Below are positions 893 to 35,354 of a stretch of DNA of 37,040 bases, piece after piece. A model generated the notes under the pieces. The model did not search any database. It had not been told where the DNA came from and saw nothing but the letters and a program-made list of their open reading frames with translations. Made by a program: the position numbers and the translations under genes. Source of the DNA: Halieaceae bacterium MED-G27 (lineage in GTDB: Bacteria; Pseudomonadota; Gammaproteobacteria; Pseudomonadales; Halieaceae); the NCBI GenBank assembly GCA_002456975.1, contig NTKA01000019.1:1-37040 (forward strand), given 5' to 3'. Each line of letters starts with the position of its first letter. The first letter of the stretch is position 1.

Positions 893-2907
893 TCAAAAAG
901 ATCGCTCAACTGTGAGTCTAAGACTCCTTGGCTCAAGAGGGTGGAAGTGAATGTCGGATACTCCCTCGGGCTGCTCCCCCGATAATCGCGACTCATAGTA
1001 GTAGGCGATATCAATATCGTCGCTGTCGAGTAAGTTGAGTACCTCAAGCTTTATTCCGGTTTGTCCTAGCTCGAGTGTTGCAGCAGCGTTAGCTAGAAGC
1101 GATTTACCACTCTGTATCGTTCTGTCTTCAAGCAGCGGTGCCCCGCCCAGATAGCGAATCCTGATGCTCGTGGTAAGTTTGTCATTCCATCTCGAGTTAA
1201 TACCTGCAGCCAGAGTGGTCTCAATAGACCCAGGGATAGCATTGAACCTTGGGAGCGCGTTCAAGTATTTGCCCCGCGTTTTGGTGTAGGCAACGTCAAA
1301 CTGAAATTTTGGTCCAGCGTTGATGAAAATTGTTGTCTCGAGGCCGCGCCGAACAGATCCATCGTTGGCTTCAGTGGATCCCGCGTCACCGACGAAAACT
1401 AACTCTGAATCGAGCTCAATATCAAAGGCAGTTGCGGTGAACTTGAGTGCATCGCCATGTTCATAGCGAATTCCAATTTCGCGTCCGGTTGATGGGACGA
1501 GTAAAGGGACTGACTGAGCACTCTCGTCTGTATTTGGGTCGACAGAAATCACAGCACCGCGAGCGTCGTTGGAATGCATGCCTCGTCCAACGTTGGCATA
1601 GAATTCTAATGTCTCAGAGAGGCGATACGCGATGTTTAGTTTAGGGCTGATTTGCCTGTCAGACGCTTTGCCACTGTTCGCTATTTGATTGGCGGTGATA
1701 TCAGCTTCGAAGTCATCGACTCTCATACCGATATTTGCACGCAAGTGATCATTTACTTTCCAGTCCGCATCAATAAATCCGGCGATCGATGTTTGATCGA
1801 CAGCGTCATCCCTGATTGAACGAACGCGGAGTCGCGATGAGGTGCTGTTAAGTTCCAACCTTGAAATATTGTCGTACTGAAATTCGAGGCCAGCAGACAT
1901 CGAGAGATGGCCGCTCATATCATAGCGCTTCTCAAATCTGCCCCCCAGAGGGTTCGTTCATCCACCTGCTCAAACTCATCACCAACATCGGGATTTTCTA
2001 GGAAGTAGGTGAAATTACTAAACAACTGAAACTGGGATGAAACGGCATAGAGACGCCCGTCTGTCGTATTGTCAGACATCGACGCGTTCAGACTGTAACG
2101 ACGACTATTACTACCCAGGTCGGGGTCGATGAAGCCCGAGGATGATATTCGATTCTGCGCCACTGCTCTTTGAGGGATTTGATCCGTGGCTCGCCAACTC
2201 GAGTCATAGTAGTCTAATTCAAGTCTGCTCTGTGTCTCTTCAATCGGTAAGGTCCAGCCAAAGTGCCCCTTGTTTTGGCGGAGGTTTTCATCGAGCGCCC
2301 ACGGGCCTGCGTAGCGCGTGCTGTCCGCGGCCACCGTGTACCGGTCGTTACTCGCTGCGATCAGTGATCGGCGATAACCAAAGCTACCGGCACTCACTTT
2401 TAAAAGTGGGGCAGTCATATTAGCTCCGTAATCAAAACGAACGCTTCCTGCTGACGAAAAGTCGCCATCTCGGGCCAAATAGGGACCTTTCTGATAGCGG
2501 ATAGTTGTCACCAGTTCAGGAATAATGGGATTGAGATCAAGATAACCTTGCCCATGACCATGGGTCCTCATGTTCAGAGGTATGCCATTGAGTTGCGCGG
2601 AAAAGTCCGTTCCGTGGTCCAGATTGAAACCGCGTAAGAAATACTGATTGGCCTTACCGGTCCCTGAGTGCTGGGTCGCTGTCATACCAGGCACGGCTTC
2701 CACAAGCTCTCCAACTCTTAGGAGTGGCGGTGGGTCAATATCATCCAAGCCTACGAAACCTTGTGAGGCGCTGGTGGCAATACCGATTTGGTCGGTACTT
2801 CGACCATAAACCAGCACTTCCTCCATCGGTTCAGCTGCATGACTGCTCTGTGCTAACAGCAGCAGTGACGTGCGTAGTGTGAACAGAGTTCCTGTAGCGA
2901 TGCGCAC
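893..2907 (-). pseudogene. TonB-dependent receptor, split by a 1-nt frameshift
   Basis: This is an outer-membrane TonB-dependent receptor in two frames. The first part (GTG start at 2907) has a signal peptide ending SSHA, a TonB-box-like EEVLVYGRS, and a plug domain with VGELVEAVPGMTATQHSGTG, YFLRGFNLDHGTDF and HGHGQGYLDLNPIIPELV. The second part is the beta-barrel, ending in the terminal Phe typical of outer-membrane proteins (LRLTVERSF). The join lies at the six-C run 1941-1946 (GGGGGG in the coding strand). One extra G would give LWGGRFEKRYDMSG and a continuous frame of exactly 671 residues. As written, the first frame ends after LRSAMI and no full-length protein is made. A short homopolymer allows a sequencing error, true decay, or slippage-based phase variation. 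The substrate is not evident. Confidence 0.85.
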
Positions 2908-9210: not shown

Positions 9211-10041
9211 CTACTTTTTTGCGAAACGGGCGCTTACATCGCTTTTAGTGATTGCTGCGGTTAACCCCCTCAAAACCCCCACGATACCCACGTTTTGTCG
9301 ACGAATAGCAGTCAGCGCCACAGTCGTATCAATCACCCACGCAGTGACAGATAATTTCCCTTCACAAAAGCTAAACTCCGTATCCAAAGGAGTCCCTGCT
9401 AAGCACTCTGCCAGACCAATTACCGCACCCTCCCCGAGCTCGAAACTTATACCTTTCCTGCGCGCCATCAGCCCCTTTTCCGCTACGACTAACGCTCTCT
9501 CTGATGCGATGTGATTCCGTATATCTAAGGTGCTACGCAAAGCGACCGATGGGTAGCTTCCATTGCGCAGAAATATCTCCAATAAATCCGACCTACAATT
9601 TGAGTCAGGGAGATGGCGGCCTGAATCGGCTAGTTTATCGCTGTCTTTTGCGGCGACTTCCGCAGAATTGCTCTGTTGCAACTGCATAGCTAAACCCGAA
9701 AAAATACTTTTTATGGATGGCAAGCCCCTGTCAAGCTCCTCTTGCATCCATTTCATTGATATTTCGAGACATTTGGTAATGGTAGTGGCCTTGGCAGAGG
9801 CTAGCCGACGGCCTGTACCCAAAAGTGCTAGCTCACCAAAAGAGCTGCCGGGAGAAAGCTTGGCCAAGATTTGGCGCCCGTTGTTTACCGATATTTCAAT
9901 TTCTCCTTCTTGGATAATGTAAAAATTATCCGCGGGGTCATTCTCTTCGAACAAGTATCGCTCGCAGGGAATCGAGACTTGCATCAACTTAGGATTTTGT
10001 TCCCAAGGGGATCGGCTGATCTCAAATATATTTTCCTCCAT
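9211..10041 (-). CDS. Cyclic-nucleotide-binding domain protein
   Basis: A cytoplasmic protein of 276 residues from the ATG at 10041, which has GGAG 6 nt upstream; a TTG at 10053 would add four residues but lacks that site. Residues about 20-120 form a cNMP-binding domain: FEENDPADNFYIIQEGEIEI, then the phosphate-binding cassette FGELALLGTGRRLASAKA with the conserved Glu and Arg of the CRP/PKA-R fold. A second, degenerate cNMP-like domain follows (ELGEGAVIGLAECLAGTP), without the ligand Arg. No helix-turn-helix is visible, so it is probably a signalling adaptor rather than a CRP-type transcription factor. It starts right at the end of the broken HD gene on the same strand, and two adenylate cyclases lie in this window, so cAMP is the likely ligand (inference). 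Confidence 0.8.
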   Translation of the reverse strand: MEENIFEISRSPWEQNPKLMQVSIPCERYLFEENDPADNFYIIQEGEIEISVNNGRQILAKLSPGSSFGELALLGTGRRLASAKATTITKCLEISMKWMQEELDRGLPSIKSIFSGLAMQLQQSNSAEVAAKDSDKLADSGRHLPDSNCRSDLLEIFLRNGSYPSVALRSTLDIRNHIASERALVVAEKGLMARRKGISFELGEGAVIGLAECLAGTPLDTEFSFCEGKLSVTAWVIDTTVALTAIRRQNVGIVGVLRGLTAAITKSDVSARFAKK

Positions 10042-10043
10042 AT

Positions 10044-10712
10044 TTAACTCCAATATGACCCCGCCTTTGAAAGGAACGTTCTAAGTTCCTCGTGGTTTTT
10101 CTTTTTTTGAACTCCACAGAGTTCACTGCCAACATCACTCTGCCAATCATGGCGCTCCATTAGCTTGGCCGTGATAGGGGTGAAATCCGCAAATTCGATG
10201 TCAAGCGCTGCAGACACGGCCCTAGTCTACGACCAAAAGACTTTTCTTCCAAGGTTAGATAAATCGGCGTCTAGTAAGAAAGGAGAAAGCCTAGTGCTAC
10301 TTACCTGCGCAGGTCCCTCCGCAATAAGTTTTGTATCTATTATCCTTTGCACTACTGTTTCAATTTCTTCCGCATTGTAGTGCTTAGAAAGCTTCATGAC
10401 GGTCTCTGTCATCTTGGCTCCAATTTACTCGTTGTCATTTCGATGGGTCATAAAACCTGCGTCATGACCCAGGGCAGCCAACGTAATAAGGCTGATGTCT
10501 CGATCATTAAGCCCGGCTTCATTCGCTAACTTTAATGACTCATTTATTACATCAATAGTATGAAAGTAGGAGTGATACCCTAACGTTGCATCTAAATTGT
10601 GTTTTAAGCGGGCATTTAACTCTGTCGCTGGCTGTGGCAGCAGACTTAGAGCTTTAGCTACTTGTTTTGGTACAACCGTTGGATAGGGGCCATCCCTAGA
10701 AAACTCCCTCAT
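10044..10712 (-). pseudogene. HD-domain phosphohydrolase frame with two nonsense codons
   Basis: One continuous 222-codon frame is interrupted in phase by TAA at codon 96 (10427-10425) and TAG at codon 162 (10229-10227). The translation carries HD-superfamily motifs: GYHSYFHTIDVI (metal His), ALGHDAGF (the HD pair), then after the TAA IGAKMTETVMKLSKHYNAEE, and LLDADLSNLGR (downstream metal Asp) before the TAG. Family members normally read N-E-x-I-G at the first stop, so sense codons probably mutated there. The final TAA sits just before the ATG of the cNMP-binding gene, with GGAG inside the last codons, so the two were translationally coupled. HD proteins of this type are often phosphodiesterases or nucleotide phosphohydrolases; substrate unknown. 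Confidence 0.75.
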
Positions 10713-14114: not shown

Positions 14115-17100
14115 TCATAGGTAGCCTTGCAGGCCAATTGAAAAAAATGAGCTACCTCTTTTTGATGACTGCGCATTGAGGTTTATGTCCAATCTACTGC
14201 CGAAACGGCGTTGTAACTGTACGAAAAATGTTATGTCTGATTCATTGTTATCATACCGATAGTCGATTAACCGTGTTGAGAGCATACCCCGTTTAATTGG
14301 GATCGAAATGCCGAGATGGGTAGCCATTTTGGGCACTGACGTATCCATCGTTGGTGCATCTTTACCCGAGAGGGACCAACCAGTAACCCCTCCAGACGTT
14401 GAGAATCCGCCCACTAGGGACTTTTCAACAGTCAAGCTCGAACTGCTGAGCGATAGTTGTTCGAAGCCTCTATCTGGGTAGAGTAGCTGATAATGTAAAG
14501 GGCTTCGGTAGCGATCCAGTGCAACTCTCCTGATTTGTCGCGCTGATTGTTGTTCAGCAAAATAATCAATGAAGATAGGGTTATTCTGCAAATCAGCGCT
14601 GGTATGTTCTGCGGTTACAGAAAAGTACTGTGAAAGTTTGTGCGCTGCTCGAACCGAAATTTGTTCGGTGATGCCGTCAGGATGCAGCCAATCGTATAAT
14701 GGAGTAATTCCCGCAATTCTCGTGGGGCTGACGCTCGCGTCCACTAGTGGCCTTCTGTCTCGGACAGCCGCTAGCTGAAGTGATGTTAGGCCGTTGCCAG
14801 ATGCCCAATAGAGGCCAGCACCGCCTAGGCTTTCAGTTTTTTTTACGCTACCGGAGAGAGCGTTGATGTTATCTATTGAATAAACGTCCGGAAATGGACC
14901 CCCGTACTCGGTAATCAAGTTATCATTGAAAGCTCGATGGGTGCTAACCAACTTTGCGAACAGGTCTATCTCAACGCCAAGCCTTGCAGTCCACATACCT
15001 CGTAAAGAAAAAAATTGATCAGACTGCTCCAGTTGCTCAACCAGATCGTCGCGAAGAATTGGATCACCAAAGTCTAAATCCTCATAGCAGTGCAACTGTT
15101 CTTTATGGAAGAATCCGATTTGGCTGATGTTCTTGATTGCGTGATAACCACCATCAACCAGAAGAGACTCGTTATCGCTGAGCTCAATTACTGAACTGAA
15201 CTCAACACTGTCTCCGTCTGCTCGTCTGTCTACTTCGTCACTACAGTTGGCAGTGAAATCTGGGGAAATCCCAAAAAACGGATTTGCTGGTTCCTCGGCT
15301 GGCGCTCTTGAGATTAAGTCACTTGCTTGCGCTGCTGCGTAAATAATCGTTGTTACGTCATCTGAAGTATTTGTATAGCTCACGCTTAAACGATTTTCGT
15401 CAAGATCTGTTGTTTGAGTGCTTACGTCAGCTCTAAAGGGTGAGACCGTTGCATAGAGGCTTATGTCATGACCGTATTTGGGCCTCCAACCCACTGCAGC
15501 GATGACCGTGCGGTCAGAGTATGTGATATTTCGCCGATCAGGATCAGAGATCTCTTGGTCAAAGCTTCCACCCTCCAGTAACCAAGATATTTCTCCAAGG
15601 TAAGAGTGTTGATATCCGTTTAAACCAGTGCTTGAGTAGCGCCCAATAGTTTCGTCTACCCGCGAATATTCGGCGCTGACAACTCCTCGTATGCCATTTC
15701 GTGATACGCCGTCTGGGAAATCTCTTCTGACGCCCAAGATTTGCGAGTCTAGAGACAAACCGCGCATCAATTGACTCGTGGAATAGAAATCACTATGCGA
15801 TACGGAGGCCTCGTAGACATGACTCGCTGGATCCCGAGCCTTGAATTGATGTTGAGAGGCGGTTATCGCTAATTGGGGGAGACCAATCTCATAATAGCGT
15901 CGCCCGACATTGAGACCGCCGGTTTGATCAGTAGCAAACTCAGTGGCACTGCGTTCGACGACTCTTTTTCGAACCGCTTTTTCTGCCTCCAGCTGACTGT
16001 TATTAAAATCAAACTCTGCGGCAAATAGCTTGGCCGCAAGTAGATTGGGAATAGGATCCAATGGATCCAGGCGTTCCGCATCGGCAAATCTTCTGATCGC
16101 GAGCTGGGTCTCCCTTCGATGCAGATGGCCTATGCCTTGATAAAGTTGCGCTCTTGAAAAATTCGTATCGATTGCAGTTGCTTCCAAAGCCGCTAATAAC
16201 GCATCGTCCGTAGCATTAAGTTTTAGTTTCAGAAGGCTATCCGCAAGAGCTAGATCTGCGGTAGTTTGATGGGGCGACGTTTTGTGAGAACTGATTGCAG
16301 ACCGTGCCTTTTGTACTTGTCCCGTCATTACATAATAGCGGGAGACCAAAGAAATATACTCCTGACTCGGCTCGGCTATGTCACTTGCAGCGTTCAGATA
16401 TTTATGAGCTCTGTTGAATTTCCCTCTGAGCAGTTCCACATTGGCTGATGCTAAGTAAATATCAACTAGTGACGGGGCTTCTCTTATACCAACGTTCAGT
16501 AAGTCGCGGGCCTTTGCCAGTTCTCCCACAGCAGTTTCTATTGATCCAAGCAAGAGCCAGTAGTAACCCTCGTTGACAATTTCATCCCCAGCTTCAAAAA
16601 GGATTCTTTTGGCATCTTTAAAGCGTCCCTGCGTCAGCAGATGCTTTGCGGCAACCCAATGCCTAGCTTTCGCGTCCGATTGCTCAATTAGCTTCTTGGC
16701 ACGTGTCTCATCCCCGAGGCCAATTGCGATTTCGGCCTGAAATAGTTCAAACCATGCTATCCAGTCCGCCGTTGTGACTGGAAACATTCGTTCTTTATTT
16801 CGATCTGTCCATTTAGTGATGATTTGACGGAGCTTGGTGCTAAAAATGGAACTGGCAAAATTTGTGTTGTCAGATTCGTAAGTGCGAATTAATTCTCTCG
16901 CCCAGTCGGGAGCATCCCCTCTTGGTAGGTATGCCAGTGGCTGAGCCTTGTAATGGTATATAAACTGTCTCGCCTCGTTAGAGCTGATTACCGAGCTTAT
17001 GGTTAGGTTTCCGGTGACGGCATCTACGCTCGCCACCTGCCCGGTTTCGATCAGAGCGGTTTTCTTTGTTGTTTTGATTTCGACAGTTCCTGCCAGCACG

Positions 17101-17552
17101 GCGAGGGATCCTATTCCGCTCTCATCCACTTGCGCAATCCATTCAGTTCCTCGTACTGCTGCGGTTGCTCCCGGAATCCTTATTTTTAGATCTACCTCAA
17201 CTCGATTTGTGCGTGACCATACCTTACCGCTCGAGATATTGAGTGCGATAGTGTTATTTTGCTTGAGATCGGTAGGGCCGATTAGCTTGATCTTTGTGTT
17301 AGGACCGATCTTAGTTTGAGTGGAGTCTGGAAGAAGCAATGTTGCCATCCCGATCCTGTCCGTTTTTAGCCAGTCCTGTGGTTCTAGGATTGTTGCTGCA
17401 GCGGTCTTACTCCAGCTCTGCCCGTCTTGGGACTCACTAACGTTACCCTCAACTGAAATTACTTCGAAATTGCCGACAGCTTTGGCTTCTGTGGCTGATG
17501 GTTCCCAAAGGAATAGTGCGAGTGCAAATAAGCTGATAAGTTGACGACGCAT
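14115..17552 (-). CDS. FecR-domain / TPR / outer-membrane beta-barrel protein
   Basis: The 1145-residue protein has a signal peptide (about 1-23), then a FecR domain (about 30-190: GMATLLLPDSTQTKIGPNTK, ISSGKVWSRT, IPGATAAVRGTEW, LAVLAGTVEI). A TPR region follows (about 280-560, with paired-helix repeats such as YWLLLGSIETAVGELAKARD). The remainder (about 580-1145) is rich in alternating hydrophobic/aromatic strands and ends FFSIGLQGYL, consistent with an outer-membrane barrel. The FecR domain would face the periplasm. The ATG at 17552 lies 6 nt after the stop of the Cys-rich gene, so they share an operon. FecR-type domains usually relay envelope signals; the convergent CHASE2 cyclase is a plausible partner. 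The barrel assignment is by composition and C-terminus only. Confidence 0.8.
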   Translation of the reverse strand: MRRQLISLFALALFLWEPSATEAKAVGNFEVISVEGNVSESQDGQSWSKTAAATILEPQDWLKTDRIGMATLLLPDSTQTKIGPNTKIKLIGPTDLKQNNTIALNISSGKVWSRTNRVEVDLKIRIPGATAAVRGTEWIAQVDESGIGSLAVLAGTVEIKTTKKTALIETGQVASVDAVTGNLTISSVISSNEARQFIYHYKAQPLAYLPRGDAPDWARELIRTYESDNTNFASSIFSTKLRQIITKWTDRNKERMFPVTTADWIAWFELFQAEIAIGLGDETRAKKLIEQSDAKARHWVAAKHLLTQGRFKDAKRILFEAGDEIVNEGYYWLLLGSIETAVGELAKARDLLNVGIREAPSLVDIYLASANVELLRGKFNRAHKYLNAASDIAEPSQEYISLVSRYYVMTGQVQKARSAISSHKTSPHQTTADLALADSLLKLKLNATDDALLAALEATAIDTNFSRAQLYQGIGHLHRRETQLAIRRFADAERLDPLDPIPNLLAAKLFAAEFDFNNSQLEAEKAVRKRVVERSATEFATDQTGGLNVGRRYYEIGLPQLAITASQHQFKARDPASHVYEASVSHSDFYSTSQLMRGLSLDSQILGVRRDFPDGVSRNGIRGVVSAEYSRVDETIGRYSSTGLNGYQHSYLGEISWLLEGGSFDQEISDPDRRNITYSDRTVIAAVGWRPKYGHDISLYATVSPFRADVSTQTTDLDENRLSVSYTNTSDDVTTIIYAAAQASDLISRAPAEEPANPFFGISPDFTANCSDEVDRRADGDSVEFSSVIELSDNESLLVDGGYHAIKNISQIGFFHKEQLHCYEDLDFGDPILRDDLVEQLEQSDQFFSLRGMWTARLGVEIDLFAKLVSTHRAFNDNLITEYGGPFPDVYSIDNINALSGSVKKTESLGGAGLYWASGNGLTSLQLAAVRDRRPLVDASVSPTRIAGITPLYDWLHPDGITEQISVRAAHKLSQYFSVTAEHTSADLQNNPIFIDYFAEQQSARQIRRVALDRYRSPLHYQLLYPDRGFEQLSLSSSSLTVEKSLVGGFSTSGGVTGWSLSGKDAPTMDTSVPKMATHLGISIPIKRGMLSTRLIDYRYDNNESDITFFVQLQRRFGSRLDINLNAQSSKRGSSFFSIGLQGYL

Positions 17553-23545: not shown

Positions 23546-23653
23546 ATAGTGCTTAATTTGTATCGAATTTAGAAACTTATATGTTTTTAGCCCAAATAAA
23601 TTATCGCGCGCGTGGTAGCGGTTTTGCCAGCGCTTAACGTGGAAGGTGCATCT

Positions 23654-26600
23654 ATGAAAAGTACGAGGTTAACAAAGCTTTCAAGAATGGGTTGTAGCTT
23701 GTTCGCTAGCTCGATTCTTTCAATATTTTTCGCGAGTTCGAGCGCTCATGCCCAAGAGTCATCGGCAGTGGATGCTTCATCACCAATGTCCCAAGATTTA
23801 GTGTTGAGTGACCCCACCATTTCAGACGACCCTTTGATCGAGGAGGTCTTCATAACAGGTTCTTTGTTACCAAAAGGCAACTACGAAAGTAATGCCCCGA
23901 TAACCACTATAAACGCTGAGCAGTTTGAAGTTTCCAATGCTATTAACATTGAACAACTACTAAACACGCTACCCCAAATTTTAACAGGCGACGATCGAAC
24001 CAGCACCTTTGGTTTTGGGTGGGCGACTGCTGATTTACGAGGTTTGGGTACTAATCGCACCCTGACGTTGTTAGATGGTAATCGATTAGTACCAACTTTT
24101 GCCGACGGGGGTACAGTAGACCTAAATCTAGTCCCATCGGGAATAATAGAGAGAGTGGAAATTCTCACAGGAGGAGCCTCGACCACCTATGGGTCTGATG
24201 CAATGGCCGGCGTGGTCAATATCATCACAAAAGAGGGGTTTACTGGGTTTGAGATTACCACTGCTGCTGAGATGACCGAACAATACGAAGATGCCAACCT
24301 AAGCAATCTGGGAATTACGTTTGGGACTGAGTTCGGCAATGGTAACGGTCACTGGATGATTCACGCGGACGTGACAGACCGGAGTGAAGTTAGATTTACG
24401 GACAGGGCATTTTCAGAGGCGTGGAACGAGACGCTTTTTGATGAAAATGGCGTCGCGATAGGACTTGCTCCTTACAGACATCCAGTGTCTTCAAATGGCG
24501 CGCTTTTTGGCCCGGTGTCGGGGGCTTTAGCTAACTTCACGGCTGATGGTACCTTAGTGCCTTATGACCGAGAAGAATACGGCTTTATAACGACTGAACA
24601 TTTCGATTTGCAGGTGCCTCAAAACCGTAAAGTCATTTTTTCCAAGCTTCGTTGGGACGCAGAAAATTTTTCTGCTTTTGCACAACTGCATGCCGCGGAT
24701 GTGTCGTCAACACGTCCAATGCCGCCCGTTCCTTTTGCCGAAATTACTCCGCTGACGCTGCAGGGTAATCCATTTTTATCCCAGGCAGCTCAGCAGACGC
24801 TTCTCAGCACTCCGGACGTTTTCTTTTTTGGTCCGGTGGCAGGGATTGACTTGGATGGAGACGGGATCACAAATGTGATGCCATTGGTGGTTGCAAAATG
24901 GCTAGAAGGGCTCGGGGAGACCCGATGGGAAGTCGAAAATGAGATGCTGCAACTGAATTTGGGCTTTGATTGGAGTATCAACGATAGTTGGGGGTTGCAA
25001 GGCAACTTTAACCGCGGAGATATTGTTTATGACTCTCTAATTACGCCTGCCGTGGATACTGTGAGACTAATGCAGGCGGTAGTACCAAATCCGTTTGACC
25101 CCACAGGGCAGACTTGCCTGGATCCAAGTAATGGATGTGTTCCATATAATATCTTTGGGTTCGATCAAGCGTCGGATGCTGCGAAAGACTTTGTAACGAC
25201 AGATATTTTCCGAAAAAATGAGTCTGAGCTGACGGTTGCTAATATGGTTTTGTCAGGAAACACGGGCGAATTTTTCAATATGCCGGCGGGAGCACTTGGC
25301 GTCGCGTTTGGTATCGAATATTTAGAGCGAGTCAGTTCATACGATACGGATCCTCGCGTGGCAGCTGGAGATATAAGCTTGTATTCGTGGGATGACGCCG
25401 CGCCGCTAGACGAGGTAACAATCGACAGGAGCTCTATTTTTTTTGAAATGGCAATTCCAGTGGTTGATGGTATCCCAGGTATTTCATTTCTGGAGCTTGA
25501 ACTCGCGGGACGGTATACCGAGCACAGTACCATCGGTTCCACTACTGCATACAAGGCTGCTATGTCATGGTTCCCTATCGATGACATTCAAGTTCGAGCC
25601 GGGTTAAGTAAGTCAACAAGGGCTCCCAGTATTGAGGAAATGTTTGGCGATTTCGGACAAGAGGAGCTGAATCTTATTAGCGATGCAGACCCGTGTTCGG
25701 AGACTCCAATTTTATACAATCAATTTGGGATTGGCGGTGGAAACTATCTGGTGGGTACTCCGGAGGATTGCATTGCCACAGGGGTGCCAGAGTCAGCGCT
25801 GTATTCTCCTGAAATCAATATTCAAAACAGCGGTGGTATCCCCGTATATTTGGGGGGTAGTCCTGACCTTGACGAAGAAACAGCGGAGACGTTAACACTA
25901 GGCGTCGTTTGGACTCCGTATGACTTAGAAGGCTTTTCAGCAAGCATAGACTTTTTTTCCATCGAAGTGAGTGACTACATTGATAGTCTGCCTGGCGGAG
26001 CTAATACGCTTTATTTTTGCTACAACAGGGAACTCGATGCCCCTGAATTTCAGAACATACGACCGGCCTACTGTGCAGGTTTGAATCGTGATGATAGTGG
26101 CGCGCTCGTCTCGATTAATGCAGGTTTGCGCAATCTCGCGTTGCACCGAGTTGAAGGCGCAGATTTTTCAATATCACAGCGTTTGGAAGTTGGAGGCGGT
26201 ATTGTTGACTTGAATTATGTAGCGAGCTACATGGATGATAAGTTGTATGCGGTGGATGGAACCTCCGCCGAGATTAATTGTGTGGGTCGATACAATATGC
26301 CGATTGGGGGCAATGCTTGCTCTCGACCCGTCACAAAATTAAAGCATCGCGCTACGGCATCATGGATGAAAGGTAACTTGACCGCTCAGCTGACCTGGCG
26401 ACATTTGTCGAAGGTAAGTAATGCAAGGACGGACCGATCCTATTACGTCGATTCCATAGATGCTTTTAATTATTTCGCGCTTTCTGGTAATTACGCGTTC
26501 GACAATGGACTCATTGCAACAGTTGGCGTAAGAAACTTATTTGACAAAGCCCCACCAATCTTGGATAGGAGCAGTGCATGGGAAGCCAATACTTTTCCAA

Positions 26601-26665
26601 ACATGTATGACGTTTTCGGGCGGTCTATCTTCGCTCGCTTAAATTACAAATTCGGTTCGATTTGA
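23654..26665 (+). CDS. TonB-dependent outer-membrane receptor
   Basis: A 1003-residue receptor from ATG 23654, with GGAAGG 7 nt upstream; the longer GTG start at 23612 lacks such a site. The signal peptide ends SSSAHA. A TonB-box-like segment (IEEVFITGSLL) precedes the plug (about 65-195: APITTINAEQFEVSNAINIE, ADLRGLGTNRTLTLLDGNRL, GASTTYGSDAMAGVVNIITK). The rest is a 22-strand-type barrel with late motifs LSKSTRAPSIEEMFG and TVGVRNLFDKAPPILDRSS. Paired Cys in extracellular-loop-like parts (TCLDPSNGCVP, DPCSETP) may form disulfides. There is no STN signalling domain. It belongs to the family often annotated as carbohydrate or peptide receptors; substrate unknown. It leads a run with the TonB-CTD protein (52 bp) and a cyclase. 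Confidence 0.92.
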   Translation: MKSTRLTKLSRMGCSLFASSILSIFFASSSAHAQESSAVDASSPMSQDLVLSDPTISDDPLIEEVFITGSLLPKGNYESNAPITTINAEQFEVSNAINIEQLLNTLPQILTGDDRTSTFGFGWATADLRGLGTNRTLTLLDGNRLVPTFADGGTVDLNLVPSGIIERVEILTGGASTTYGSDAMAGVVNIITKEGFTGFEITTAAEMTEQYEDANLSNLGITFGTEFGNGNGHWMIHADVTDRSEVRFTDRAFSEAWNETLFDENGVAIGLAPYRHPVSSNGALFGPVSGALANFTADGTLVPYDREEYGFITTEHFDLQVPQNRKVIFSKLRWDAENFSAFAQLHAADVSSTRPMPPVPFAEITPLTLQGNPFLSQAAQQTLLSTPDVFFFGPVAGIDLDGDGITNVMPLVVAKWLEGLGETRWEVENEMLQLNLGFDWSINDSWGLQGNFNRGDIVYDSLITPAVDTVRLMQAVVPNPFDPTGQTCLDPSNGCVPYNIFGFDQASDAAKDFVTTDIFRKNESELTVANMVLSGNTGEFFNMPAGALGVAFGIEYLERVSSYDTDPRVAAGDISLYSWDDAAPLDEVTIDRSSIFFEMAIPVVDGIPGISFLELELAGRYTEHSTIGSTTAYKAAMSWFPIDDIQVRAGLSKSTRAPSIEEMFGDFGQEELNLISDADPCSETPILYNQFGIGGGNYLVGTPEDCIATGVPESALYSPEINIQNSGGIPVYLGGSPDLDEETAETLTLGVVWTPYDLEGFSASIDFFSIEVSDYIDSLPGGANTLYFCYNRELDAPEFQNIRPAYCAGLNRDDSGALVSINAGLRNLALHRVEGADFSISQRLEVGGGIVDLNYVASYMDDKLYAVDGTSAEINCVGRYNMPIGGNACSRPVTKLKHRATASWMKGNLTAQLTWRHLSKVSNARTDRSYYVDSIDAFNYFALSGNYAFDNGLIATVGVRNLFDKAPPILDRSSAWEANTFPNMYDVFGRSIFARLNYKFGSI

Positions 26666-26717
26666 GACGAGTGCAATCTCCAATCAAGGCATACGCTGTG
26701 GAGCTGAGGGGATAGCC

Positions 26718-27131
26718 ATGTTTCTATCTTACGCCAAAAAAGTCAGTCTCAGTGCCACAATGGTAGTGTGTCTCATCAGTAGTCAGGCTACTGCGCAGCA
26801 GGTGTTAGCTGTCAACGTTGGTCTGGCTGATGTTGGTGGTGCCAAGGAGAGGGTAAAGTGCGAACTTATTGGCAGCGGCCCGCTGAGGTACCCACCCAAA
26901 GCAAAGCGATACAAATATGTGGGACAGGTTATTGTCAAATTCGGGGTCGGCGCGGATGGAGGCGTTATAGATCCCTTCATTGTTGCAGCTGAGCCTCCGG
27001 GTGTCTTCGAGCGAGCTGCGCTGACTCACGTTAAGAGCTACAAATATAACCCCCCCCTGCACAATGGACAGCCAGTGGAGGTAGATGAGGTTGCGGTCAA
27101 ATTAGTTTTTGATCCGAAACGAAGGAGGTAG
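26718..27131 (+). CDS. Short periplasmic TonB C-terminal-domain protein
   Basis: A 137-residue protein with a cleavable-looking signal peptide (about 1-26, VVCLISSQATAQQ) and, from about residue 60, a TonB C-terminal domain: RYPPKAKRYKYVGQVIVKFG, GADGGVIDPFIVAAEPPGVF, ERAALTHVKSYKYNPPLHNG, PVEVDEVAVKL. The usual uncleaved membrane anchor and Pro-rich periplasmic spanner are missing, so it cannot by itself couple to ExbB/ExbD in the normal way. It would be a free periplasmic domain that could bind the TonB box of the receptor upstream. AGGGGA lies 6 nt before ATG. It is 6 nt from the cyclase gene, whose ribosome site lies in its last codons, so the two are translationally close. Confidence 0.8.
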   Translation: MFLSYAKKVSLSATMVVCLISSQATAQQVLAVNVGLADVGGAKERVKCELIGSGPLRYPPKAKRYKYVGQVIVKFGVGADGGVIDPFIVAAEPPGVFERAALTHVKSYKYNPPLHNGQPVEVDEVAVKLVFDPKRRR

Positions 27132-27137
27132 TTAATT

Positions 27138-29231
27138 ATGTCTATCAAACTTCGAATCATTATTCTGTCACTCGTGGGTAATTTTGCAATCGCGGCGATT
27201 TTCCTCTTTCTTGCACAGTACCAATCTTCTCAAAAAGACCAGGCCGCTATCGAGTCCAGCGCAAATGTTTACGGGCAAGCATGGAGAACAGTGCTGAATG
27301 ACTCGTTTAATAACTCTGTCGGTTTTTATCATCCGCAGTCTGGTGATCCCGAGAAGATAACGATTTGGACTTATAATCCTGCTGGTCAGGAGGCCACTTT
27401 GAGTGGTTTATTCGCAGAGAACCGCGATGTTCAAGATTTGCGAGAATTTATCGATACTTATTTCGATGAGGCATTTGCTTGGGGTGAGCTGAGTTTTGTA
27501 ATGGCCTTTGACCGTGAGGGCCTCCCGCTCCATTGCGCCACGGCGTATGAGGATCTGGGAGTTGACCCTTGTGCGGAAGAGGCAACTGCTGATTTCGTGT
27601 CAAAAAGTACAGGGCGATTGTTAAAAGGACCCAATGATGAATTCAATTTGGGGGCAAAAAGAGCAATTTCGGAAATATCAGATTCTACTGGAGCCGCAAC
27701 AGCTGCGTTCTACCAGACTTTGCTTGTCGATGTAAAAGCGGATCAAAAGCTGCTCGGTCACGTTTTGCTGGGTAAAAATATCGCAGACGCACTCGAAATT
27801 TTCGAGTATGAATTTTTAGTTAAGGCTTTGGTAGGAACAGTAGACCAAACCATTGAACTCAATGATTACTATCCCGCTGAAGATTACGCAGAGCTGGGTG
27901 AGACCGAATCTTTGGTCAAAGAAGTCGCATCATTCGTAAGAACCAATGAACCGGAGTTGATTCAAACGGGTTTCTGGGGCCAGTTGAATAAGGATTTGGG
28001 TGTGTCATATGTGTCTATTCCGTTGAGCGACTACAACAAAATAGAGGATGCACGGTTTACGATTATCTCAAATCAAAAAGATTCTATCGCCGCTATTGTT
28101 GAGGCAGACAATTACGCGTTTGCGGTATTGAGTATTGTTTATATTTTAATCGTTAGCGCAATCATTATTTTAACTACGTATTCTTTCGGTGGGATTTCAA
28201 AGGCGATAGAGGTTCTGAGAGCGCTGACTGAGGGCGACTTGACTGTTGAAATGCCTAAGCGATTTTTTCAGTCTTCGAAAGATGAAGTTGGGCAACTGAC
28301 ACAGTCTCTCGAGACATACCGGGGTCATCTGACGGAGATGGAAGCAATAAGGTTCCAACAAACAGAAAAAAGAAAACATCGAGACTCTGTAATTCTCGAC
28401 AAAATGTCATCTCTGTCTCGGCAGTTGCAGGGCGATGCGAAACGTCTTTTAGAAGACGATATTTCTCGTATGAAGACGCTTGCTGAAACTGAGGATTTTG
28501 AAAAAGCTGAAGAGGCATCTGCGGAAATGATGGGTATCGCTATTTCTAGAATGTCAGACGAGGTAGTGGCGCTGATTGAGGCGAGGACTGGAGAAATTAA
28601 AACAGCTTTGGATCGGAATGAGGAGCTATTACTCAATATTCTTCCCAAGGATATCGCCGCGCGGAAACTAGCTAAAGAGAAGGTAATAGCGGACTCTCAT
28701 GAGTCGTGTAGCGTGCTTTTTGGGGACATAGTTGGATTTACCGAGCTTTCAAAAGACTTAGGACCCGAGCGTTTAGTAGAATTTTTGGACGGTGTTTTTA
28801 CCCGATTTGATGATTTCAGTGATGAGTTGGGATTGGAGAAAATAAAAACGATCGGCGACAACTACATGGTTGCTTGCGGAGTTCCAAATCACGATCCGGA
28901 TCATCCATTTAAGATAGCGGAAATGGGCCAAAAGATGGTGAGACACATTCTCGACCTCGAACCAATCAAAGGGCATGTGCCGGCTATGCGGATCGGTATT
29001 CACTCAGGCCCATTAGTTGCTGGTGTAATTGGAAAGCGGAAGTTCATTTATGATCTTTGGGGTGACGCTGTGAACACAGCGGCTCGGATGGAGTCACATG
29101 GCGTACCCAATATGATCCATTTAACTAAAGACACTGCTGATATGATAAAAAATCGGTACGACTTAACTTCGCGCGGGCCCATCGAAGTGAAAGGTAAAGG
29201 AGTAATGGAAACCTTTTTAATGGGAGTATAG
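27138..29231 (+). CDS. Transmembrane HAMP-class III adenylate cyclase
   Basis: The 697-residue protein has a membrane segment (about 6-27), a periplasmic sensor of about 300 residues of unrecognised type, a second membrane segment (about 328-352), a HAMP domain (about 353-405), a long helical linker and a cyclase domain (about 520-695). Catalytic residues are intact: Asp530 (LFGDIVGFTEL), Asp574 with Lys570 (EKIKTIGDNYM), Asp639 (IYDLWGDAVN), Asn646 and Arg650 (NTAARME). The Lys/Asp purine pair matches class IIIa adenylate cyclases, so the product is probably cAMP. AAGGAGGT precedes ATG by 8 nt. Its position directly after a TonB receptor and a free TonB domain suggests that receptor activity is sensed in the periplasm and converted to cAMP (inference). 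Confidence 0.9.
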   Translation: MSIKLRIIILSLVGNFAIAAIFLFLAQYQSSQKDQAAIESSANVYGQAWRTVLNDSFNNSVGFYHPQSGDPEKITIWTYNPAGQEATLSGLFAENRDVQDLREFIDTYFDEAFAWGELSFVMAFDREGLPLHCATAYEDLGVDPCAEEATADFVSKSTGRLLKGPNDEFNLGAKRAISEISDSTGAATAAFYQTLLVDVKADQKLLGHVLLGKNIADALEIFEYEFLVKALVGTVDQTIELNDYYPAEDYAELGETESLVKEVASFVRTNEPELIQTGFWGQLNKDLGVSYVSIPLSDYNKIEDARFTIISNQKDSIAAIVEADNYAFAVLSIVYILIVSAIIILTTYSFGGISKAIEVLRALTEGDLTVEMPKRFFQSSKDEVGQLTQSLETYRGHLTEMEAIRFQQTEKRKHRDSVILDKMSSLSRQLQGDAKRLLEDDISRMKTLAETEDFEKAEEASAEMMGIAISRMSDEVVALIEARTGEIKTALDRNEELLLNILPKDIAARKLAKEKVIADSHESCSVLFGDIVGFTELSKDLGPERLVEFLDGVFTRFDDFSDELGLEKIKTIGDNYMVACGVPNHDPDHPFKIAEMGQKMVRHILDLEPIKGHVPAMRIGIHSGPLVAGVIGKRKFIYDLWGDAVNTAARMESHGVPNMIHLTKDTADMIKNRYDLTSRGPIEVKGKGVMETFLMGV

Positions 29232-30035: not shown

Positions 30036-33000
30036 CTATTGTGGTGCAAATGCCGAACTATGCTCTTGACCGACACCTTCAAAGCCAGGTTCGCTGGGCC
30101 AAACATCTAATTTATACCGTCCGTCCTCAGTGAAATAAATTGATTGGTAGTCCGGATCGTAGTCATCGGGCAAACCATCACCATCATGGTCATATATAAA
30201 TACAGGGAACCATAGGTCATGAGTAGGCTCACCGTATCTCGTAAACGCGGACCAATCGCCGCTCGCAGCAAGCCCGCCGGCATGGAACATACTGCTGTCG
30301 CCGTTATAAAAATAGGCATCATGACCATTCACCTGAAGCTGACCTGAGGTCGAGCGAGACACGTCGACATTAACCCCATCGTGGAATGTGATGGAGTTAT
30401 TCGCGGCAAAATCAACGGGTAACCAGGTCGACCCTATGCCAACAGGTTCTCCATCGCCTGCAAAGGTGTATAGCGTCTGGTAGCGAGAATTTGGCGTGCC
30501 GTCGTTTCGCGCCTGTAAAAGGGACACATTGAACGAGGGGTTAAAAGCCTCTGTGAATTCATCCGCAGAACCAAAAAACAAGCGATAGTCGTCGGGAGTC
30601 TCGATTTGTCGCATCCACGCATCAGCGTCCGCAAATAACTCCCTGTGAGTCTTACCATAAGTTTGATGCAGAGCGACCCGATAGTCACCGGACGACGCGA
30701 TTCGCCGATAGTACTCAGAATATAACTTTTCGAGACCAAACTGATGAATCAAATAATTAGCGAAGTCGCCCTCAAAACTCTGATCGCCGTCCGCAAACTT
30801 TTGCGCGTAATCAATTGATAGGTCGGGCCAACCCTCGCGAATTCTATTCTCAATTTGCTGACGAGTTGATTGAACATCTTGCCCACCATCGTAGGCTGAC
30901 TCATCTAGCACATTATCTATATAGTAGAGTTCCAGCATTGTAGAAGTGCCATGCATTATCGGATTATTTACCCAATCCGGTCGGGGCGTTGCAAATCGCT
31001 TGGGCCCACTGCTACTGGATGCTAGGAAGTGGTGAGCCTCCCAATTATGCGTGAACTCATGCAACCAATTCATGAGCTCGCCCTCCCTGAACGAATTTGA
31101 AAAGCAACAGTCCCCATTTCGATTATACGCGGGCTGACTGAGGTCAATCGTGGACCCCTCGGTCATGAGGTCCTCTGGAGAATCGTCGTTTTGTCCCCAG
31201 CCCGGGTCATTGACCTTGAGCGGAGCCATAAAAGTATGTCGTTCACCAGTTTCATCACAAATATGTATTGGGACTATGCCGTCGTTAGTTAAGCTTGACT
31301 CGTTCATCCCATAATATCCGCCGCCTTGCCCAGCAAAAGCAAAGTTCCGCTGAAATTCATCTTTCCAGCATGCCTTGGTATCAAGATGTCCACGCTGAAA
31401 TGCCAATTCGGTAAGAACTTGACTTGCTTGGGGGTAATCATAATGGTGAGCAAAATTGGAGGCTCGAGGGCTACCCATCAGATCGACGAATCCACCCAGA
31501 GCGTAGTCAAGATAGTCCAAGAAATCAGAGCGAAGATACGGTGAAGCAAACACGTAGCTGGACTCTCCATCATGAGCGAGTAACTGCTCGTTGATTTCTG
31601 ATACCTTGAATAATTTCAGACGATCATCGTTGCGCGGCGGTTTGGACCAACCAGCATCCTGAAGACCCTTAATTCGTGTGCTTCTCGGCTTCGGGATCTC
31701 TAATACCGCAAGCTCAGTCTTATCATCAGGCCTCACCGACTCAGGTTCAGTCCATAAAAATCGTTGATAGTGGTTTGGCATATCACCCGTATCTAGATAG
31801 CCGGAGGCTGGGAACACGTACCAACTATCGAAATCCGAGCCTATCGCACCTGAACCCGAGCGTTCATGTGATTGTTCCACCGAGAGACTGGCTGTGCTTG
31901 TCCCAGGACTTTCTTCCTGGCACGCACCCTCAACAGGCGGACCCAATGGCTCACCAAATGCCACAACCTCTAAACAGGTATCGCCGGACGTCAGGGCGAT
32001 AGAGCCGCGTGTCGGAAATGGAGCAAACTCTTCTGAACCATGCGAAGTTTCGGGCGCCCACAAACCCAGCGAAAAGAGATGGTAACCATTCCAACTTCGG
32101 CTGAGTGATAGATCCTCATTATCACAATTAAGATGCCACAGACCCTCGTCAACGACCGGGAGGCCATCCTGATCAAATAACGTTATCCGCGTTTGGGAAT
32201 TGCACTGAAAGTAGATCGACACCGATAACTCGACTATGAGCTCATTCCTGCCATCAGCCCACTCAGGTGCGGTGAGCTTAAGTGCGTTAATCCAAGGCTC
32301 GGTTCCAATCGGAATGTTTACCAACGCGTCGACAGGATCCGTATCAAGCGCATCGGTGATGCCATCGCCGTCATCATCTTGATCAAAAAGATTGTTAACG
32401 CCGTCACCATCAAAGTCCGCGACGTTGTATGTTTCTTGATCAAAAATCAGCGGATCTCGCGGCGCTGGGTCATCCGCATCGACGATACCATCATTGTCAT
32501 CGTCGCTGTCGGCATTATCTCCAATACCGTCGCTATCCGTGTCTACCGTCTCCAGTGGGTCCAAAGGATCGAAATCTAATGAATCTGCAACACCATCGCC
32601 ATCATCATCATTATCAGATCCGTTACCAATCCAGTCATTGTCAGTATCTAGTGATTCATTAGGATCAAGGGGAAGTGCGTCGTTTAGATCGTCGACACCA
32701 TCACCGTCTGTATCAAATATTTGATTAGTTATGACTTGCCCGGGTTTTGTAAAATTTTCATCTTCAGGCCAAACATCTAACTTATACCGTCCGTCCTCAG
32801 TGAAATAAATTGATTGGTAGTCCGGATCGTAGTCATCGGGCAAACCATCACCATCATGGTCATATATAAATACAGGGAACCATAGGTCATGAGTACGCTC
32901 ACCTCGCCGAGTAAAACCTGACCAGTCATCATCTGCCGCCAAGCCACCCGCGTGGAACACGCTTGTATCTCCAGTGAAGAAATACGCATCGTGACCATTA

Positions 33001-35354
33001 ATTTGCAGCTGTCCGGTCGCCGAGCGAGTTACTTCCGCCACCACATTCTCAGAAAACTGCACCGACTCCGCAGTGTCAAAAGCAACTGGCACCCATGTCG
33101 CGCCAACACCAACCAACTCGCCTTCACCAACGTAGGTGTAGACTGTTTGATACCGATTGTTTGGTGTGGAAGAGTTTCTAACCTGTAAAAGTGAAACATT
33201 AAAAGATTGGTTTAGATTAGCTTTAAACTCTTCAGCCGATCCGAACAACAAGCGAAGGTCTTCGTGGGTGCGAACCGTGGAAGCCCAGCGGGCTGCGTCC
33301 TGTAGCAATGCGTCTAGAGGCTTTCCGTAGGTTTGGTGTAAGGCAACACGATAATCCCCTGAGCTCGCGGTTCTCCTGTAGTACTCAGAGTATAGTTTTT
33401 CCAAGCCGTATCGTTTTATGAGATAGGCAGCCCAAACCTGCTCGACTCCCTGGTTGCCATTCCTGAATTCAGCAAGATAATCAACATCTGTAAATCCTTC
33501 ATGCAGTATTTCTCGCTCATCATTCTTTTTAAGTGACCATAATTTTTCCGTGCCATCGTAATCATGGTCGTGAATTAAGTACTCGCGCACATATAACTCA
33601 AAAGGAACGGAGGGCCCATGGACAACTGCCGGATTACTACCCCAACCCCTGACCGGGTGCGAGAAACGCTTGGGACCAAACTCAGAACCAACGATGGTAT
33701 GAAACGCCTCCCAATTGTGGGACCACTCATGCATATGACCGCCCATTAGTTCATCACGAAATTTCCCTGGTCGAGTCCCTCCGTACTTGGGTTCAGATTG
33801 CGCGCCAAGATCTATCGCTGAACCAACGGTCAAAATATCATCAGGCCAATCATAGCCATTACCATAGCTAGCATCGAAATTGAGTCTCGGATGAGTAAAG
33901 ACACGTTGTGCCTCTCCAGAGGAGTCTCGATAACATGAAATCAGCTTGTCATTGAGATAACTCTCCTCAGCCATACCGGCATAGCCGCCACCGCTCCCAA
34001 CGCTAAAAAATTCAGGGCCACCATTTTCCTCCCAGCAGGATTTGGCGTCATAATTTCCACGCTGAAAAGCAAGCTCATTCAGAATCTCGCTTGAGTAACT
34101 AAAGTGGTGCATATAATTTTCAGCCCGCACGCTACCCATAAATCCGGTGTAGGTACCCAGCATAAAGTCAAGAAAGTCGAGAAAGTCTGGTCTTATCTTG
34201 TCTGACGCGAAGACATAATCAGATTCACCATTATCCTCAAGATGCTCATCCAAAATTTCCGAGACCTGAAAAACCTCAAGCCGTTTCCCATTTTTGGGAG
34301 GATAAGTCCATCCAGAATCTTGAAGAGCTTTTACAACTGAGTTCCGAGGACGAGGTATCTCTAGGACCCCAAACTCTGTAGTGCTTGATACCGGCAACGA
34401 TTCGGGTGCTGACCAAGCCAGTTTCTGGTAATTGTTAACATAGGGAGTCCAGCCAGAGCTTATTGATCCGTTTCGATCATCGGTATACCAGCCTAAAAAG
34501 TCAGTGCCCTCAATCCCGATTCCGGACCTAGCTAAAGACGCAGTCCCAGTCATATCTAATCCTTCGGGAACATCAGCGTGAGTCGCAGATGAACAGTCAG
34601 TGTCGACGGGAACAAGGCCGGATCCAAAGCTAACTACATCTATACACTCTCCGTTAACCTCTAAATAGACCCCTTGCACGTCGTCTAGATTGAAGTCGTG
34701 AGGAAAAAATTGAGCGCTTACAAAATCATAGTTGTTCACTAACCAAACGTTATCGCAACCAATTTCGCCACGGTAAAAGCCAACGGCATCGCCCAGAACA
34801 AGGCCGGATTCACCAGTAAAAAGGTGCTTAATAGTGCTTCCGTTGGAATCATATGGGCGCACTGAAATTAAGCTACAGTCAGTTGTACTTACTTTGGCAA
34901 CTTCGACCTCAATCCTATCTAATTGCTGGGAGTCATCATGAGTCATCACCTTAATCTCATTTAGCCAAGGCTTGACGTTACGCGCAGAATTAACGGTCGC
35001 AAGAATTGGATCGGCATCCAGCAGATCGGAGACGCCATCACCATCGTCATCGACATCAAAAAGATTGATGATGCCATCTCCGTCAATATCGGCGACATTG
35101 TAAGTTTCGTCGTCGTATATCGAAGGATCGAGTGGGGCTGGGTCTTGTGCATTGGAAACACCGTCACCATCAAGATCATTTTCGTTAACTTCAGTCTCCT
35201 CTTCGCCCGCACCGACGATTATTAACATAACTGCCTGAAGCGTAGAATCGGACAGCTTTCGTTCAGTTGTAGTCGCATGGCTTGATTGCACCAGTGCCAC
35301 AGCGACACCAGCCAGCATAGCCAGCCCAACTCTCCAATCACGTAATGCCCTCAT
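30036..35354 (-). CDS. Secreted 1772-residue protein with two HExxH modules and calcium-binding repeats
   Basis: After a signal peptide (about 1-27, ending SSHA) comes a thrombospondin-type-3-like calcium-binding stretch (about 58-125, repeated DxDGDG-x-x-D). Module 1 (about 131-905), a second calcium-binding linker (about 905-1015) and module 2 (about 1020-1760) follow. Each module has an LTD-like start (PWLNEIK, PWINALK), a zincin motif (HEWSH at 542-546, HEFTH at 1432-1436) in H-E-x-x-H-NWEA context, and a conserved downstream E-L-Y that may supply the third zinc ligand. Both also carry LEKLYSEYYRR.ASSGDYRV, and each ends in DHDGDGLPDDYDPDYQS. It is probably a calcium-stabilised extracellular metalloprotease; family not named. 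GGAGGAGGT precedes ATG. Transcription seems monocistronic, with its own terminator. Confidence 0.8.
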   Translation of the reverse strand: MRALRDWRVGLAMLAGVAVALVQSSHATTTERKLSDSTLQAVMLIIVGAGEEETEVNENDLDGDGVSNAQDPAPLDPSIYDDETYNVADIDGDGIINLFDVDDDGDGVSDLLDADPILATVNSARNVKPWLNEIKVMTHDDSQQLDRIEVEVAKVSTTDCSLISVRPYDSNGSTIKHLFTGESGLVLGDAVGFYRGEIGCDNVWLVNNYDFVSAQFFPHDFNLDDVQGVYLEVNGECIDVVSFGSGLVPVDTDCSSATHADVPEGLDMTGTASLARSGIGIEGTDFLGWYTDDRNGSISSGWTPYVNNYQKLAWSAPESLPVSSTTEFGVLEIPRPRNSVVKALQDSGWTYPPKNGKRLEVFQVSEILDEHLEDNGESDYVFASDKIRPDFLDFLDFMLGTYTGFMGSVRAENYMHHFSYSSEILNELAFQRGNYDAKSCWEENGGPEFFSVGSGGGYAGMAEESYLNDKLISCYRDSSGEAQRVFTHPRLNFDASYGNGYDWPDDILTVGSAIDLGAQSEPKYGGTRPGKFRDELMGGHMHEWSHNWEAFHTIVGSEFGPKRFSHPVRGWGSNPAVVHGPSVPFELYVREYLIHDHDYDGTEKLWSLKKNDEREILHEGFTDVDYLAEFRNGNQGVEQVWAAYLIKRYGLEKLYSEYYRRTASSGDYRVALHQTYGKPLDALLQDAARWASTVRTHEDLRLLFGSAEEFKANLNQSFNVSLLQVRNSSTPNNRYQTVYTYVGEGELVGVGATWVPVAFDTAESVQFSENVVAEVTRSATGQLQINGHDAYFFTGDTSVFHAGGLAADDDWSGFTRRGERTHDLWFPVFIYDHDGDGLPDDYDPDYQSIYFTEDGRYKLDVWPEDENFTKPGQVITNQIFDTDGDGVDDLNDALPLDPNESLDTDNDWIGNGSDNDDDGDGVADSLDFDPLDPLETVDTDSDGIGDNADSDDDNDGIVDADDPAPRDPLIFDQETYNVADFDGDGVNNLFDQDDDGDGITDALDTDPVDALVNIPIGTEPWINALKLTAPEWADGRNELIVELSVSIYFQCNSQTRITLFDQDGLPVVDEGLWHLNCDNEDLSLSRSWNGYHLFSLGLWAPETSHGSEEFAPFPTRGSIALTSGDTCLEVVAFGEPLGPPVEGACQEESPGTSTASLSVEQSHERSGSGAIGSDFDSWYVFPASGYLDTGDMPNHYQRFLWTEPESVRPDDKTELAVLEIPKPRSTRIKGLQDAGWSKPPRNDDRLKLFKVSEINEQLLAHDGESSYVFASPYLRSDFLDYLDYALGGFVDLMGSPRASNFAHHYDYPQASQVLTELAFQRGHLDTKACWKDEFQRNFAFAGQGGGYYGMNESSLTNDGIVPIHICDETGERHTFMAPLKVNDPGWGQNDDSPEDLMTEGSTIDLSQPAYNRNGDCCFSNSFREGELMNWLHEFTHNWEAHHFLASSSSGPKRFATPRPDWVNNPIMHGTSTMLELYYIDNVLDESAYDGGQDVQSTRQQIENRIREGWPDLSIDYAQKFADGDQSFEGDFANYLIHQFGLEKLYSEYYRRIASSGDYRVALHQTYGKTHRELFADADAWMRQIETPDDYRLFFGSADEFTEAFNPSFNVSLLQARNDGTPNSRYQTLYTFAGDGEPVGIGSTWLPVDFAANNSITFHDGVNVDVSRSTSGQLQVNGHDAYFYNGDSSMFHAGGLAASGDWSAFTRYGEPTHDLWFPVFIYDHDGDGLPDDYDPDYQSIYFTEDGRYKLDVWPSEPGFEGVGQEHSSAFAPQ
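30097..30233 (-). repeat. Intragenic direct repeat, copy 1 (module 2 end)
   Basis: About 137 bp matching 32767-32903 with only two substitutions seen (T/C at 30111, G/C at 30226). It encodes the calcium-binding end of module 2. Confidence 0.9.
32767..32903 (-). repeat. Intragenic direct repeat, copy 2 (module 1 end)
   Basis: This is the partner of 30097-30233, offset by 2670 bp. Flanking module sequence is far more diverged at DNA level, so this tract has been homogenised by recent gene conversion or is under strong nucleotide constraint. Confidence 0.9.

Follow-up and report, generated by a model that had tools for sequence, protein, structure and literature searches.

Three adjacent genes and their proteins

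The window analysed here, a stretch of 37,040 nucleotides from Halieaceae bacterium MED-G27 (NTKA01000019.1), is contig 11 of an incomplete 2.02-Mb genome. It carries a plus-strand operon of three genes, which encode a TonB-dependent receptor, a short protein with a TonB C-terminal domain (TonB_C) and a membrane adenylate cyclase whose periplasmic sensor is of the double Cache (dCache) type. We describe this operon, and the pairing of its TonB_C and sensor genes in related bacteria. The gaps are 52 base pairs (bp) between receptor and short TonB genes and 6 bp between short TonB and cyclase genes; coordinates, strands and gaps are all as given in a first-pass annotation of this DNA, which had proposed a relay from the outer membrane to cyclic AMP (cAMP). 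A promoter scan gave 2 sites versus 9.9 in shuffled sequences, neither of them upstream of the operon, and the same scan gave 4 terminator-like sites versus 6.5 in shuffles.

The receptor gene (23654..26665, +) encodes 1003 residues with Plug and barrel domains recognised by Pfam. Its longest open frame begins at a GTG codon at 23612, and the ATG at 23654 was used here. The TonB box and the segment that follows it, IEEVFITGSLLPKG, lie at 23837..23878 (+). An STN domain was not found: only Plug and barrel were detected, with no family at E values up to 1 in residues 1–99. Comparison of the receptor profile with the sequences of solved structures gave no match at E 1e-20, and no substrate is therefore proposed. 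The genome as a whole has 15 TonB receptor plug matches in its 2.02 Mb.

The middle gene (26718..27131, +) encodes a protein of 137 residues, which is probably exported. Its sole Pfam family is TonB_C (PF03544; residues 56–131, 26883..27110, +; E 4.9e-14). The fold of a relative (L068) resembles that of TonB in its complexes with BtuB, FoxA and FhuA (2gsk, 6i97, 2grx), with TM-scores of 0.81–0.87 by target length. The N-terminus resembles a signal peptide, probably cleaved (residues 1–26, 26718..26795, +), with the site between SQATA and QQ according to a rule-based reading made with no dedicated predictor. Applied to the 27 listed short TonB proteins, the same rule finds a small-x-small site in each, at an implausible position in two of them (L041 and L042); these 27 belong to a set of 31, the last four of which were read by eye, and cleavage is a prediction throughout. 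Transmembrane-level hydropathy is absent from the window protein (best 19-residue window, 1.46). No proline-rich spanner is found in the 27 proteins, which have 0–4 prolines in the 22–42 residues before the YP motif; the window protein has 31 residues with one proline ahead of it. As far as can be judged from its sequence, the short TonB protein looks devoid of an N-terminal membrane anchor of the ExbB/ExbD-dependent type, in line with what the first-pass annotation had described. Contig 3 of the same genome carries ExbB-like and ExbD-like genes together with a 205-residue TonB_C protein, which has an N-terminal hydrophobic stretch and looks like a normal TonB.

The third gene (27138..29231, +) encodes a protein of 697 residues. 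Its sensor lies between two transmembrane helices (residues 28–325, 27219..28112, +) and was modelled by AlphaFold2 from 18 sequences as a double Cache fold, with a mean predicted local distance difference test score (pLDDT) of 82.5 and a predicted TM-score (pTM) of 0.78. The top Foldseek matches of this model are dCache-type ligand-binding domains, with a best E value of 2e-6 and modest TM-scores (0.39/0.45 for the first), and its neighbours include ligand-bound chemoreceptor dCache domains. The Pfam dCache_3 score stays under the cut-off of 25.7 bits (14.8 for the sensor alone, 13.0 for the whole protein), and the sensor profile has no match up to E 1 among the sequences of solved structures. 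Two cysteines, C133 and C145, are invariant in 21 rows of one alignment and in 18 rows of another, the two sets overlapping. The catalytic domain (Guanylate_cyc, PF00211; residues 518–695, 28689..29222, +; E 1e-53) aligns with both halves of mammalian adenylate cyclases of types 5 and 9, and this alignment keeps two aspartates, a lysine–aspartate pair and an asparagine and arginine, which we take to be the metal ligands, the adenine-selecting residues and active-site residues, respectively. Its PF00211 domain and catalytic residues assign the protein to the predicted class III adenylate cyclases. The closest bacterial catalytic domains of solved structure are 4p2f, 4p2x and 7yzi, presumably mycobacterial Cya structures; these cyclases are not known to have a dCache sensor or a TonB_C partner. 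The earlier description of the third protein thus holds for the periplasmic sensor and for the intact cyclase, but its HAMP domain is only a weak match (residues 357–399, 28206..28334, +), at 19.2 bits versus the Pfam cut-off of 25.

Pairing of the TonB_C and sensor genes in relatives

Related loci were collected by their cyclase or sensor only, the TonB sequence not being used, which gave 28 sensor loci (21 + 5 + 2). A short TonB_C gene lies directly upstream of the sensor gene in 23 of them; another (G333) begins at a contig end and is not assessable, and the last four (G093, G090, G353 and G293) have no upstream TonB_C gene of their own. The reverse search, with a TonB_C profile, gave 32 named loci. 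Seventeen are close matches and in every one of these the sensor gene comes next downstream, seven being already among the 21 forward loci; the other 15 show no sensor, and in two of these the gene caller showed no TonB_C either. When the sensor belongs to a hybrid histidine kinase, the TonB_C gene is upstream in 22 of the 23 loci fetched from 41 matches, and the 23rd stops at a contig edge. The three genes of the operon are also neighbours in relatives, as the first-pass annotation required of its proposal.

The phylogenetic trees of sensors and TonB_C domains agree in their large groups over 31 paired loci. Over the same loci, with kinship not removed, the two sets of distances correlate at 0.843, a value reached in none of 2000 permutations. 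Support is weak at several of the inner branchings among the short TonB_C proteins, and midpoint rooting puts the kinase pair in a different position in the two trees; six more sensors were placed in clades afterwards. In the three genomes with two modules (G000, G092 and G086), the distance between TonB_C proteins is 0.73–0.75 within a genome, versus 0.12–0.54 for the same module type across two genomes, so that a TonB_C protein is closer to its counterpart beside the same type of sensor than to the other TonB_C protein of its own genome. Taken together, these sequence comparisons indicate that the TonB_C gene and the dCache gene form a co-inherited pair. The tie between them is strong, and the TonB_C protein is very likely a dedicated partner of the dCache sensor.

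A single cysteine (residue 48 in the window protein) is conserved in 17 of 17 short TonB proteins of the first clade, to which the window belongs, and the corresponding position has no cysteine in the other clade. Unpaired cysteines are uncommon in periplasmic proteins.

The distribution of the system looks narrow. Matches to the sensor profile occur in 6 of the 293 genomes searched from the order and in 3 of the 369 from the class; a narrower profile (A4) matched 1 of 398 from the phylum. Each of these counts includes the window's own genome. The closest named relatives in the TonB_C search are Halieaceae, K189A and Luminiphilus genomes, which we take from their names to be marine, and the bacteria that have the pair are apparently marine.

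Three outputs and one receptor subfamily

Three outputs were observed behind the same sensor: a class III cyclase (8 distinct loci), a SiaA-type phosphatase (28 loci) and a hybrid histidine kinase. The cyclase-bearing sensors do not form one group on the sensor tree, which argues that outputs have been exchanged; on the TonB_C tree, the cyclase-linked proteins form one group with weak support. The membrane cyclase of the proposed route to cAMP is thus only one among three outputs of this pair.

In the SiaA-type loci, Pfam recognises SpoIIE in the four sensor proteins scanned, and a SpoIIE-like part was found by BLAST in 28 of 28. SiaC (PF09345) and PF19788, the latter presumably SiaB, were detected in the two loci scanned, and a SiaB-like gene is present in all 28. 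These sister loci recall SiaABCD of Pseudomonas aeruginosa, as described in the available parts of PMC7647112, PMC8457831 and PMC12834913, since they encode a membrane PP2C sensor like SiaA together with SiaB and SiaC genes. They differ from it by the short TonB_C gene that precedes the sensor gene in most of them, and by a soluble class III cyclase where the diguanylate cyclase SiaD would be, although diguanylate cyclases were not searched for there; in the window, sensor and class III cyclase form a single protein. This soluble cyclase gene lies at most about 2.5 kb from the sensor gene in 26 of the 28 loci, the other two being cut by contig ends. Such clusters of SiaA-, SiaB- and SiaC-like genes with a soluble class III cyclase (for example L036, 6149–7153, and its relatives) may possibly represent an adenylate cyclase controlled by SiaC in place of SiaD.

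The hybrid-kinase form was seen in two loci at first, then in two families of very small genomes, where 30 of the 40 genomes of one and 11 of the 21 of the other gave a match. All 12 larger kinase loci share a convergent four-gene block. Pfam, applied to one locus, recognised receiver, receiver-GGDEF and EAL proteins in this block, which is seen in L164 (3754–7140) and 11 similar loci.

The receptor is tied to the module in a more restricted way. A single receptor subfamily lies beside all eight cyclase loci, upstream on the same strand in six (as two open frames in K189A) and convergent downstream in two. The same subfamily is found at four SiaA-type loci, where its gene is on the opposite strand and some 4.6 kb upstream of the sensor gene, so that receptor and module occur together in three gene orders. 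Among the 18 loci of the receptor-bearing clade (17 of the tree plus L072), 12 are linked to the receptor, three are cut short before its place and three are unlinked. Thirteen module-linked rows and the receptor of genome G007 form one group of the receptor tree (100/100), apart from the other receptors of the window's genome and from unlinked sisters. The window genome's partial receptor L117 was left out of both receptor trees and L044 out of the second; the K189A receptor entered as its second piece only. Neither tree included the cut receptor of L072 or a further TonB-dependent receptor of the window (893–2907, −), which lies in two overlapping open frames and looks frameshifted. Receptors also stand beside some SiaA-type loci of the second clade (G061, G065, G080 and G086), but they were not counted, because the three of them placed in a tree (L044, L046 and L050) are of another family, which includes an unlinked receptor of the window's own genome.

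At 1000 bits or more, the receptor was found in 6 of 140 genomes of the family; five of these encode the whole cyclase, and in G007 a small contig holds a fragment of it of 161 residues. The match ranked after these six scores 789 bits. This line was drawn after the list had been seen, and it is supported by the receptor tree. Just after the TonB box core, TGSL[LV]P[KR]G is shared by the 12 linked receptors with an available N-terminus and by the receptor of G007, whereas five unlinked sisters have TGSRI[AK]. This difference amounts to one inherited change and is therefore no more than suggestive of a tie between the receptor sequence and the module. Chance adjacency of the operon genes was ruled out on two grounds: relatives have the pair and the receptor together again in other gene orders, and the linked receptors are of one subfamily although the window's genome has 15 plug matches. 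The tie of the receptor is strong, within one clade of modules only. The earlier idea that the receptor takes part in a relay is partly supported: in this clade the receptor probably belongs to the same pathway, but many TonB_C–sensor loci have no linked receptor.

Cyclic-nucleotide-binding and HD-domain genes are possible candidates for readers or effectors of the cAMP signal. Both kinds, the former without a recognised DNA-binding domain, are found near the modules of G086, G093, G090 and G101, and G000 and G092 have them near their second module. The modules of G069 and G071 have only HD-like genes nearby, and the other loci listed show neither. Both are about 17 kb from the operon in the window, where the HD-like gene is a 95-residue piece and the cyclic-nucleotide-binding protein (9211..10053, −) has no recognised DNA-binding domain; relatives of the latter lie nearer to several modules. 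The cyclic-nucleotide-binding gene beside the second module of the window's own genome (L036, 11307–12050) is split in two open frames.

The window holds a second class III cyclase, which has a CHASE2 sensor (12113–14098, +) and is convergent with a gene for a FecR-domain/TPR protein (14118–17552, −); this pair resembles the FecR–CHASE2 adenylate cyclase–TPR clusters described in the available part of PMC9239204. Those clusters share with the operon an envelope protein with a TonB-receptor-signalling domain beside a membrane cyclase, but this protein is FecR instead of TonB_C and the sensor is CHASE2 instead of dCache. The product of a large minus-strand gene (30036–35354) is 1772 residues long; read by eye, it is internally duplicated and has DGDG-type repeats, and no Pfam family was found in it at E 0.001.

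Possible routes from the receptor to the cyclase

The most probable reading is that the TonB_C protein is a periplasmic adaptor for dCache receptors, accompanied by a dedicated outer-membrane receptor in the clade of the window. The periplasmic front end would consist of two proteins, the exported, unanchored TonB_C protein and the dCache sensor of the membrane adenylate cyclase, and the free TonB_C protein would dock on the dCache domain. In the receptor-bearing clade it would also bind the TonB box of the receptor once a ligand exposes this box. Receptor occupancy would then alter the share of TonB_C protein present on the sensor, and the cyclase activity would change. For this complete relay, as first proposed for the operon, we infer a likelihood a little short of even. 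That freestanding TonB_C proteins act as general adaptors, which read exposed TonB boxes and pass the signal through dCache domains to cAMP, to a SiaABC switch or to a kinase next to cyclic di-GMP enzymes, is a tentative extension, which we hold to be possible.

Several observations weigh against this adaptor relay. Co-inheritance implies neither contact nor direction. The AlphaFold2 model of a read-through fusion of TonB_C and sensor has a pTM of 0.51 and gives no confident docking; it also carries an added N-terminal hairpin on TonB_C, which, in this model, could cover the TonB-box site. A TonB_C partner is not always needed, since G093 and G090 hold one TonB_C protein for two sensors (the second being in the same cluster) and no short TonB_C protein was found in the G353 and G293 genomes at E 1e-5. 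Conversely, L093 shows a short TonB_C-like frame of 153 residues without a sensor. The receptor is missing from a number of modules: it was not found within 5.6–8.2 kb on either side in G006, G007 and G008, the receptor of G007 being on another contig, and the linked subfamily was not seen at G353 or G293. Of the 16 SiaA-type loci of the second clade, G093 and G090 alone have it within reach, and in both it goes with the cyclase module that shares their cluster. No receptor stands among the listed neighbours of the 12 larger kinase loci, and one of these loci, L104, has a receptor some 5 kb beyond its kinase gene. The idea of a barrel in the outer membrane that acts ahead of membrane adenylate cyclases has reportedly been put forward before, for NsrA of Sinorhizobium meliloti. 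NsrA is cited in the available part of PMC9239204. Of the S. meliloti cyclases CyaD1, CyaD2 and CyaK, CyaD1 carries a CHASE2 sensor, and the accessible passages of PMC5498481 mention no TonB domain protein.

The modules without a linked receptor are also what would be expected if the substrate was imported first and sensed afterwards. The normal anchored TonB, encoded with ExbB and ExbD elsewhere in the genome, would then energise import, and the dCache domain would sense the substrate in the periplasm, as the ligand-bound chemoreceptor domains among its structural neighbours could suggest; the TonB_C protein would be a permanent subunit or a ligand presenter and would never touch the receptor. 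This scheme is possible, if rather doubtful, because it gives no reason for the sensor to be paired with a TonB domain, nor for the clade-specific segment, a single inherited change, beside the TonB box. A different role would be that of a competitor, the free TonB_C protein occupying TonB boxes and damping import by the normal TonB, so that the cyclase would be tied to uptake only indirectly. The lack of an anchor and the resemblance of the L068 fold to receptor-bound TonB domains would suit such a role, which is nevertheless improbable given that the TonB_C gene tracks the sensor, and not receptors, over three output classes, and that its tree matches the sensor tree in the large groups. A TonB needs a span long enough to cross the periplasm. 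An ordinary short energy transducer, anchored through an uncleaved N-terminus and working with ExbB/ExbD in a transport operon to which the cyclase would be unrelated, has in its favour the TonB_C domain with its conserved YP motif and the hydrophobic N-terminus of many relatives, but is very improbable, since 31 residues with one proline are too short for that span, the ExbB/ExbD genes sit with another TonB, and the TonB_C gene is still paired with the sensor at loci that lack a linked receptor; the protein looks exported and unanchored, and the case that the first-pass annotation had named as contrary to its proposal was thus, as far as the sequence can tell, not observed.

The adaptor reading differs from the best known signalling from TonB-dependent receptors. 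The FecA/FecR/FecI-type systems (including FoxA/FoxR, as described in the available part of PMC11637429) likewise link a TonB-dependent receptor to an inner-membrane protein with a periplasmic part. However, no STN domain was found in the window receptor, the operon has neither a FecR-like anti-sigma factor nor an extracytoplasmic function (ECF) sigma factor, and a free TonB_C protein and a cyclase output are found instead. The literature searched, mostly outside subscription journals, contained no description of a TonB_C–dCache pair or of an operon joining a TonB receptor to a cyclase.

Bacteria of this kind have many TonB-dependent receptors, but most of what is known about how receptor use is signalled to the cell concerns iron receptors that have an STN domain. 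If the relay is true, signals from the outer membrane would have a route other than that of FecA/FecR. A TonB-domain adaptor with interchangeable second-messenger outputs would then bring a new answer to the question of how receptor use reaches the cell, and short proteins annotated as “energy transducer TonB” would have to be read differently.

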